This document shows positions 20,738 through 23,683 of a DNA stretch of 64,000 nucleotides, piece by piece. A program made the translations under genes and the position numbers. Position 1 is the first letter of the stretch; each line of letters starts with the position of its first letter. The DNA is from [Leptolyngbya] sp. PCC 7376. GTDB taxonomy: Bacteria > Cyanobacteriota > Cyanobacteriia > Cyanobacteriales > MRBY01. Below the pieces are notes generated by a model, which was given only the letters and a program-made list of their open reading frames with translations, ran no database searches and was not told where the DNA came from. The stretch spans positions 4,944,036 to 5,008,035 of the forward strand of contig NC_019683.1 of assembly GCF_000316605.1 (NCBI RefSeq), written 5' to 3'.

Positions 20738-21385
20738 ATGAACAAAAATTATCTGTTGTACATCGGCGTATTTCTTGCAGGAGCTGTAATTACTCCTCTG
20801 TACCTCAGCTTGTTCAATGATAACGATGGCGACCCTGCGGAAGCAGCTAGCGAAGAGTTGCTCTTTGAGGAGACGGAGACCACTACTGCGACAGATTCAG
20901 GCTCCCGCTCCAATCAAGTTTTTGTTCCCATGGACAGCCAAGAGGTGATTGAAAACGACTATGCCATTAGTCCAGAAGTAAGAATTCCCACTTCTTTGCC
21001 GCAATATGCCGCAAATCAGCCAAGCATTCCCGGCTACCCAAATTACGGCGCGATTCCTCCAGTCGCTCTAAGCTTTCCAGAGCAGAAGAGTACTCTAAAA
21101 ACATCGCCACAAAAATCCTCAGCATCAGAAGATCAGGCGATCGCCCCTAAGATCAATACTTCTGCGCCAATCCTCGGCAATTTCACGAAAGATCTCTCTG
21201 ACAATATTTTTATTCCCCCAAACACTCGGCCTGATCCAAACGCCCAAGCACCAGAACCTTTCGAAACCGAGGCGATCGCCCCAAATTCTGTTGATCTCAA
21301 TAACTTTCTAGAGAACGACACCAGTTCAGATAATTGCAAGCCCACCAATACCAACAACCCTTTCCGGCCAAACACCTGTAGTTAA
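20738..21385 (+). CDS. Hypothetical membrane-anchored, low-complexity protein
   Basis: A 215-residue protein with one N-terminal hydrophobic segment (residues 5-25, LLYIGVFLAGAVITPLYLS) and a long Pro/Asn/Ser/Glu-rich tail without clear secondary structure. The tail contains two HIP1-derived AIAP stretches (from GCGATCGCCCC), which suggests weak constraint. Family and function unknown. A strong terminator follows 18 bp after the stop. Confidence 0.6.
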   Translation: MNKNYLLYIGVFLAGAVITPLYLSLFNDNDGDPAEAASEELLFEETETTTATDSGSRSNQVFVPMDSQEVIENDYAISPEVRIPTSLPQYAANQPSIPGYPNYGAIPPVALSFPEQKSTLKTSPQKSSASEDQAIAPKINTSAPILGNFTKDLSDNIFIPPNTRPDPNAQAPEPFETEAIAPNSVDLNNFLENDTSSDNCKPTNTNNPFRPNTCS

Positions 21386-21402
21386 GTTTTTCCAATATCA
21401 AT

Positions 21403-21452
21403 AAAAGCTCCTTAAGCATCACAAAGTAGATGCCAAGGAGCTTTTTCTTTTT
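21403..21452 (+). terminator. Rho-independent terminator
   Basis: AAGCTCCTT-AA-GCATC pairs with GATGC-C-AAGGAGCTT around ACAAAGTA, followed by TTTCTTTTT. It ends the transcript of the 20738-21385 gene. Confidence 0.85.
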
Positions 21453-21544
21453 GCTATGGTTTCAAATTTATCAATAAAAAAGAGAGCAAGACTTGCTTAC
21501 CCTCTCAAAAATTACTTAGTTGAATATTTATCTATATCAACTTA

Positions 21545-21676
21545 GAGGATGTCTGAAAAGGGTCTGACCGTAACTTTGGTCAAAATGAGTTGCACGTAAA
21601 AATAAGCACTTCAGGCGATCAACCTGGTGGAATTTACGCAGCCTTTATCGAACATAAAGACTTTTCAGACAACCTC
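21545..21676. mobile_element. MITE-like element placed at the tkt stop codon
   Basis: A 132-bp non-coding element. Its ends are GAGGATGTCTGAAAAGG (plus, 21545 on) and GAGGTTGTCTGAAAAGT (reverse complement from 21676): 15 of 17 bases are the same. TTA flanks it on both sides (21542-21544 and 21677-21679), a TNA-type duplication as made by some IS5-group elements. It has no open frame of its own. The right-hand TTA is the complement of the tkt stop codon TAA. Confidence 0.75.
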
Positions 21677-23683
21677 TTAGCCAAGAACTTTCTTTGCAGT
21701 TGCGAGAACATTTTCAACAGTGAAACCGTATTCCTTCATGATGATGCCGCCGGGAGCAGAAGCACCGAACGTGTCAACACCAACAACAGCACCTTCAAAG
21801 CCAACGTACTTGTACCAGCTCATGGTGCAACCAGCTTCTACAGCAACACGCTTGGAAACGGAAGCAGGAAGTACAGACTCTTGGTAAGCTGCATCTTGCT
21901 CTTCAAAGCGATCTACACAAGGCATGGACACAACACGGACATTCTTGCCTTCGGAACGGAGGGCAGTAGCAGTCTCAACACAGAGTTGAACTTCGCTACC
22001 AGTACCGATGAGAATGATGTCAGGAGTGCCTTCACTATCAGAAAGAATGTAACCCCCCTTCTCAGCTTTCTCAATAGAGCTGCCTTCGAGGTTAGGTAGG
22101 TTTTGGCGAGTAAGAGCAAGTAGAGTAGGAGTCTTCTTACTTTCCACAGCAACCTTGTATGCACCGGATGTCTCGTTTACATCAGCGGGACGATACACAT
22201 AGAGGTTAGGAATTGCACGAAGAGATGCAACCTGCTCAATAGGCTGGTGTGTAGGACCATCTTCACCGAGAGCAATGGAATCGTGGGTCATAACCCAGAT
22301 AACGCGAGTCTCAGAGAGTGCAGACAAACGGATGGAGTTCCGCATGTAGTCACTGAAGATAAGGAATGTTGCACCGTAAGGAATGAGGTTAGTGCCGTGG
22401 AGGGCGATCGCATTACAAATCGCACCCATTGCATGTTCCCGTACACCGAAGTGAACGTTACGGTTTTCGTAAGCGCCTTTTTGGAAATCGCCAGAAACTT
22501 TAATTTCAGTCAAGTTGGAGTGAGTCAAGTCAGCGGAACCACCAACTAACTCATCCAATACAGGGGCGATCGCATTAAGAGTTGCTTGGGAGTGCTTACG
22601 AGTCGCAAGACCAGCAACATCAGGAGTTGCAGTGGGGAGACAATCAGCCCAGTTAGCGGGAAGTTCACCGGAGAGGAGACGCTCAAGCTCAGCAGCTTTG
22701 TCAGCATACTTAGTCTTGTAGGTCGCCATGGTTTGGTTCCATTCAGCTTCAGCACTTGCACCGCGATCAACAGCCTTACGGAAATGGCTTAGAGCATCTT
22801 CGGGAACTTCAAAAGGACCATAGTTCCAGTCGAGTTCCTTTCGAGTCAATTCAATTTCAGATTCACCAAGTGCCGCACCATGAACGCCAGCAGTATTGCC
22901 TTTGTTAGGAGAGCCATAACCAATAATGGTGGTGACTTTAATCATTGTGGGCTTGTCAGTGACAGCCTTTGCTTCCTCAATCGCTTTGGCGATCGCATCA
23001 GTGTCAGTGTTGCCATCTTCTACATGAAGAACGTGCCAACCATAAGCTTCAAAACGAGCACTTACATCTTCAGTGAAAGCAACATCAGTAGAACCATCAA
23101 TGGAAATGTGGTTGTCATCATAAAGTGCGATGAGTTTACCCAAACCCCAGTGACCAGCAATAGAAGCTGCTTCACCAGAAATACCTTCCATGTTGCAACC
23201 GTCACCCATGATCACATAGGTGTAATGGTCGAATAGTGTTGCATCGGGCTTGTTAAAACGAGCAGCCAAATGTGCCTCAGCAAGGGCAAGACCGACGCCA
23301 TTAGCGATACCTTGGCCTAGAGGGCCAGTGGTAACTTCAACACCAGGAGTCACAAAGTTCTCAGGGTGACCAGGCGTCTTAGACTTCCACTGACGGAATT
23401 CTTTAAGGTCATCAAGAGAAACACTGTCAAAACCAGCCAAGTACATCAAAGCGTACTGAAGCATGGAACCATGACCAGCAGACAGTACAAAGCGATCACG
23501 GTTAACCCAATTGGGATTTTTTGGGTTAAAACGCATGAACTTGTCCCAAAGCGTATAAGCCATGGGAGCAGCGCCCATCGGTAAGCCGGGGTGACCGGAC
23601 TTTGCCTTTTCGACGCCATCAATCGCTAGAAAACGAATTGCGTTAATACAAAGTTGGTCGATAGATTGGGTAGCAACTGTCAT
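21677..23683 (-). CDS. tkt: Transketolase
   Basis: A 668-residue thiamine diphosphate enzyme that moves two-carbon units in the Calvin cycle and pentose phosphate pathway. The ThDP/Mg motif begins [16 protein letters not shown] (near 157) and continues to [10 protein letters not shown]. The catalytic pyrimidine-side region is [13 protein letters not shown] (near 408), followed by [12 protein letters not shown] near the C-terminus. Full length. Its stop codon is formed by the target duplication of the MITE-like element. Confidence 0.97.

Follow-up and report, generated by a model that had tools for sequence, protein, structure and literature searches.

A probable IS5-family MITE inserted at the stop codon of the transketolase gene in [Leptolyngbya] sp. 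PCC 7376

We analyzed a stretch of 64,000 nucleotides from [Leptolyngbya] sp. PCC 7376, referred to below as the window, in which the transketolase gene tkt is directly followed by a short sequence with inverted ends (Table 1). A preliminary description of this DNA, made by reading the letters only, had proposed that a 132-bp element with inverted ends is flanked by TTA on both sides, and that the inner TTA encodes the TAA stop of tkt. The coordinates given there (21542-21679) proved exact to the base with both TTA copies included, the element itself covering 21545-21676 with ends of 16 bp, and the minus-strand ORF of tkt does end at 21677. Transketolase was also said to be left intact, and indeed its ORF of 668 aa is unbroken and retains its Pfam domains. 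The two inverted ends of the tkt copy differ by one mismatch and their likeness drops immediately inward; one of the copies found elsewhere in the genome (L009) presents 16-bp inverted ends without any mismatch. At 132 bp, the tkt copy contains no transposase gene and has stop codons in all six frames.

Table 1. Features of the tkt 3' region, with positions counted from the first base of the window.
Feature	Position	Strand	Remarks
MITE (favored reading)	21545..21676	- (as on tkt mRNA strand)	132 bp; 16-bp inverted ends, TTA duplication, at least 41 genome matches
Terminal inverted repeat GAGGATGTCTGAAAAG	21545..21560	+	With the 3 bases that follow, identical to the 897-bp IS over its first 19 bases
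Terminal inverted repeat GAGGTTGTCTGAAAAG	21661..21676	-	One mismatch relative to the other end
Outer target-site duplication TTA	21542..21544	.	TNA duplications identical on both sides in 30/34 complete copies
Inner target-site duplication, TAA stop of tkt	21677..21679	-	ORF 21677..23683, minus strand
tkt, transketolase	21677..23683	-	668 aa, intact ORF; three transketolase domains in Pfam
Native tkt terminator-like hairpin, then T run	21480..21506	-	Aligns with the sequence downstream of tkt in 5 congeners

One part of the preliminary description has to be revised. It stated that the insertion replaced the 3' untranslated region of tkt, but this region was lengthened by 135 nt rather than replaced, since the original terminator hairpin is still present downstream of the insert (21506-21480), 135 nt farther from the stop codon than it would be without the insertion. 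The gene kept its stop because the element duplicates the three bases at its landing site. The tkt stop and the old terminator are thereby separated by 135 additional nt with a strong predicted hairpin fold. A motif scanner reported neither a terminator-like site inside the insert nor a sigma-70-like promoter over 21300-21800. On the plus strand, at approximately 21403-21453, we also noted an inverted repeat (AAAGCTCCTT...AAGGAGCTTT) with a T run after it, located between tkt and a convergent ORF of 215 aa. Judged by eye, this repeat would be the terminator of the convergent ORF; it is absent from the list of the scanner.

Other copies, which the preliminary description had suggested searching for, are numerous in the host genome, which is a single contig of 5,125,950 bases. 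A DNA search in which 40 of 65 first-look candidates were scored yielded at least 41 matches to the element, itself included, a number far above chance, and 26 of these were near full length with 93-100% identity. We inspected 37 loci (30 from the first genome search and seven fetched afterwards) and found a complete element in 34 of them: 33 are 132 bp long and one is 131 bp long, and the elements at the remaining three loci (L027, L028, and L030) are incomplete. The other four of the 41 matches consist of a 61-bp fragment located beside the copy of locus L065 and of three 22-bp matches that coincide with the ends of IS copies retrieved by the IS search described below. In 30 of the 34 complete copies, the same 3 bp occur on either side of the element (TAA/TAA in 19, TTA/TTA in nine, and TCA/TCA in two), and the flanks are unequal in the other four (TAA/TTA in three and AAA/TTA in one). 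A search for the end pattern that tolerated at most two mismatches recovered 65 sites in forward and 60 in reverse orientation, versus six and seven for the reversed control pattern. Within the main family of 26 copies, 15 of the 325 pairs are identical and the greatest difference amounts to nine of 132 bases; the identical pairs point to a recent amplification. Two diverged subfamilies were recognized by eye, one comprising L029, L061, and L062 and the other comprising L063 to L067. By gene context, 19 of the 34 copies are located between tandem genes, five between convergent genes, five between divergent genes, and five in an unclear setting, these being raw counts taken without a null expectation. 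An ORF of 26 aa that ends at the copy of locus L013 was dropped as a gene based on its negative codon score.

The same genome contains a full IS with the ends of the MITE, as had also been suggested for verification: an IS5-family element of 897 bp, represented by two copies that present no differences and that are both flanked by TTA on each side. This IS carries two overlapping ORFs whose frames are consistent with a -1 shift. The first ORF (114 aa as searched) matches the IS5 family transposase model NF033580 with 102.1 bits, below the cut-off of 110 bits, and Pfam DUF4096 (PF13340); the second ORF, the only one above this cut-off, reaches 110.6 bits and matches Pfam DDE_Tnp_1 (PF01609). 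One end of the MITE is shared with the left end of the IS over the first 19 bases of the latter, and a related IS, 78% identical to the 897-bp IS, presents TGTCTGAAAAGTCT at one of its ends, like the other end of the MITE. In total, the host genome contains 27 matches to the 897-bp IS, all but two of which are partial or diverged. The same TTA or TAA was found on both sides of nine IS copies (L031, L032, L034, L036, L037, L038, L041, L042, and L081), and the copy of locus L033 has unequal flanks (TTA/TAA). Beyond approximately 19 bases at an end, no evident similarity was seen by eye between the interior of the MITE and the IS. Because the interiors are dissimilar past these end bases, the MITE is not a simple internal deletion of any of the ISs that were compared.

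These properties of the host IS resemble those of the IS1031 group of the IS5 family. In a description of this group, which includes ISLrh, its members are reported to prefer TNA targets, to generate 3-bp duplications of the TNA type, and to possess short inverted ends and a length of about 860-900 bp with two partly overlapping ORFs, which in some members are joined by a -1 frameshift (PMC12016507). The MITE differs from this group in having no transposase and in having an interior unlike that of the host IS. As a separate observation, one locus (L043, G000:C1:989300-996800) presents a nest of ISs arranged as a large inverted repeat that has IS fragments with MITE-type ends at each outer border and encloses several further transposase-like ORFs.

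We then compared the tkt site, filled in the host, with the corresponding site of five congeners. All five possess a single TAA followed directly by other sequence, which is the empty site that the preliminary description had proposed to look for in relatives. The contrary outcome that it had named, in which the element would have no further copies and relatives would carry its sequence, was also looked for and did not occur. In each of the five congeners, a hairpin followed by a T run was seen by eye within about 80 bases after tkt, and this hairpin can be aligned to the terminator-like one downstream of tkt in the window. Because the nearest congener is only 85% identical over the end of tkt, the bases beside the stop codon have diverged and the empty site is clear in outline. 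Matches to the element itself cover at most 40 of 138 bases each in these genomes: congener G003 carries three short matches that resemble end fragments, congener G004 carries one, and the other three carry none. The family-level search covered the same six genomes as the genus search. Since G003 and G004 carry short end matches, the host genome is not the only one in the genus with distant relatives of the element. At locus L058 of G004, from locus position 1500, an element of approximately 133 bp can be discerned by eye; it is bordered by CTA on each side, and one of its ends is a perfect GAGGATGTCTGAAAAG, whereas the opposite inverted end is decayed. The element of L058 may be one of these distant relatives.

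The dispersed copies, their duplications, the IS with matching ends, and the empty sites of the congeners are all observed, and we regard the tkt insert as a non-autonomous MITE of the IS5 family, IS1031-like group, with a probability of about 0.96. From sequence, we infer that the 897-bp IS or a sibling of it probably supplies the transposase of the MITE. By this account, a transposase expressed from a co-resident IS5-family element would recognize the GAGGWTGTCTGAAAAG ends of the MITE, would cut out or copy the element, and would insert it at a 3-bp TNA target that is duplicated in the process. The target would have been the TAA stop of tkt, with one TAA returned to the gene and the other left beyond the element. 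The insert is in this respect an ordinary cyanobacterial MITE of the IS5 family, with about three dozen copies in this genome, and it provides an example of a MITE family found alongside an IS with matching ends.

Two other readings of the locus were weighed against this one. A conserved hairpin or terminator of the tkt 3' end, rather than a mobile element, might be suspected from the strong folding of the sequence: with both TTA copies, the element folds at -48.9 kcal/mol, compared to a mean of -26.3 kcal/mol for shuffled sequences (z = -6.5). Such folding is, however, expected from the inverted ends. The dozens of dispersed copies with target duplications and the lack of the sequence at the tkt 3' end in all five congeners argue against a conserved hairpin, and the search of Rfam over 21300-22000 returned four weak matches (E up to 1), none of them near the gathering score. 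We therefore rejected this reading, whose probability is close to nil. It might also be proposed that the MITE prefers stop codons, as a safe-site strategy that spares the genes of its host. Indeed, the stop codons TAA and TGA fit the TNA target in either orientation, and two of the 34 copies coincide exactly with the stop of an ORF judged credible: the tkt copy and that of locus L016 (G000:C1:1816368-1819501), whose TAA duplication is the stop codon of an ORF of 270 aa resembling TPR repeats. However, stop codons represent 4.6% of the weighted TNA sites that are either non-coding or stops, such that about 1.6 of 34 copies are expected there and the probability of observing two or more is 0.46; this null was built from the window alone, with genes called by a crude codon-usage script trained on 15 ORFs of the window, and with TCA and TGA sites given an arbitrary weight of 0.1. 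Without weights, stops account for 35 of 1233 sites, i.e., about one expected in 34. Moreover, at least one copy interrupts an ORF rather than sparing it: at locus L064 (G000:C1:2458487-2461624), a copy at 1504-1635 of the minus strand breaks a long ORF whose translation resembles a series of TPR repeats and, after them, a CHAT-like region. A preference for stop codons is thus very improbable, and landing on a stop is what chance predicts once insertions inside genes are selected against. The coincidence at tkt is real but not special, its frequency being close to chance. The tkt case is a clean illustration that a TNA-targeting transposon can insert at a stop codon without altering the encoded protein. 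At L064, the sole gene-internal copy that was read for this purpose, we considered a read-through of the insertion; the added 135 bp (132 + 3) are a multiple of three and the frame resumes, but the insert carries stops and this candidate was discarded.

The tkt copy presents one oddity relative to the other members of its subgroup. Compared to the identical copies L002, L003, and L006, it carries four private substitutions (T34G, G38A, C84T, and A99C), versus zero to two in each of the nine other copies of the subgroup, these three included. Together, the four changes are predicted to contribute -7.4 kcal/mol on the tkt mRNA strand, where each of them alone lowers the energy by 0.2 to 2.0 kcal/mol, and they tighten three local hairpins (-1.0, -6.2, and -0.8 kcal/mol without the changes; -7.4, -6.6, and -6.3 kcal/mol, respectively, with them). 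When the same base changes were placed at random in the core, two of 6000 placements reached -7.4 kcal/mol (a fraction of 0.0003, based on minimum free energies and on core positions only). These predicted folds fit either a correction of quasi-palindromes by template switching or selection acting on the RNA.

Selection would imply a domestication of the tkt copy, which would now serve as a 3' RNA hairpin, with the stabilizing substitutions kept for the stability or processing of the mRNA. The number of private substitutions and the rarity of such placements speak for this possibility, which we nevertheless consider unlikely. The tightening concerns a single copy and was spotted post hoc, and the same placement test yields a fraction of 0.03 on the opposite strand, on which G38A alone raises the predicted energy. 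In addition, the T84 and A38 states are also found in the outgroup subfamilies and may have been retained rather than newly acquired; the other two changes (T34G and A99C) alone correspond to a fraction of 0.02 of 825 placements, and to 0.0007 of 1500 placements when G38A is added. Changes that stabilize one strand occur in other copies too, such as C63T, which contributes -3.7 kcal/mol in each of six copies, and one change in L008 (-3.9 kcal/mol). Alternatively, the tightened hairpins might be a neutral footprint of quasi-palindrome correction, in which template switching during replication, perhaps favored by transcription, renders imperfect repeats more complementary. From our reading of the predicted folds, each of the four changes raises the complementarity of the imperfect internal inverted-repeat arms, and two of them, located four bases apart in one arm, could result from a single templated event. 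Quasi-palindrome correction is an established mechanism in E. coli (PMC7202029); in yeast, it has been associated with high levels of transcription (PMC3820800), and it has also been put forward as an origin of RNA stems (PMC8794818). However, no such trend was seen in the other copies and the polarity of two of the changes is uncertain. Correction by template switching appears to be the simplest account of the changes in the tkt copy, and we hold the neutral footprint as plausible but tentative. A combination of the two processes, in which the tkt copy is now part of the tkt mRNA, template switches perfected its hairpins, and the structured 3' region was kept for transcript stability or processing, would be quite improbable. 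If template switching did shape the tkt copy, this copy may be a natural record of quasi-palindrome correction in a repeat that follows a housekeeping gene. The general picture is altered neither by this record nor by the landing on a stop codon.

Several described systems resemble the tkt MITE. Nezha, a MITE of Anabaena/Nostoc reportedly named by Zhou and colleagues in 2008, is similar to it in being small and non-coding, with inverted ends and a recent amplification in a cyanobacterium. Another parallel is offered by MITEAba12 of Acinetobacter, whose IS belongs to another subgroup of IS5. MITEAba12 measures 113 bp and its mobility is attributed to a co-resident IS whose ends match; one of its copies has fused with a gene at the 3' end. 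Unlike the tkt MITE, it generates 9-bp duplications, and its gene-fused copy creates a premature stop instead of preserving one (PMC6382973).

Finally, we extended the search to a collection of genomes from 84,980 species, from which the host genome was possibly left out, using exact paired ends (no mismatches) separated by a single length range of 117-147 bp. Of the 13 stretches recovered, 12 belong to the MAG Limnothrix sp. CACIAM 69d (L068-L075 and L077-L080) and one to an Oscillatoriales MAG. The same scan of viral contigs returned no exact match of paired ends 117-147 bp apart. The 13 stretches are 130-131 bp long, and 11 of them are flanked by matching TNA duplications. Their agreement in length with the tkt MITE to within 2 bp, over a searched range of 117-147 bp, may hint at a constraint that transposition imposes on length. 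The Limnothrix MITE shares identical 16-bp ends and a similar length with the tkt MITE; it differs in its interior, as none of its 12 copies has an 8-base interior word in common with the tkt copy, which was the reference of this comparison. Two such interior words are shared between the tkt copy and the stretch of the Oscillatoriales MAG.
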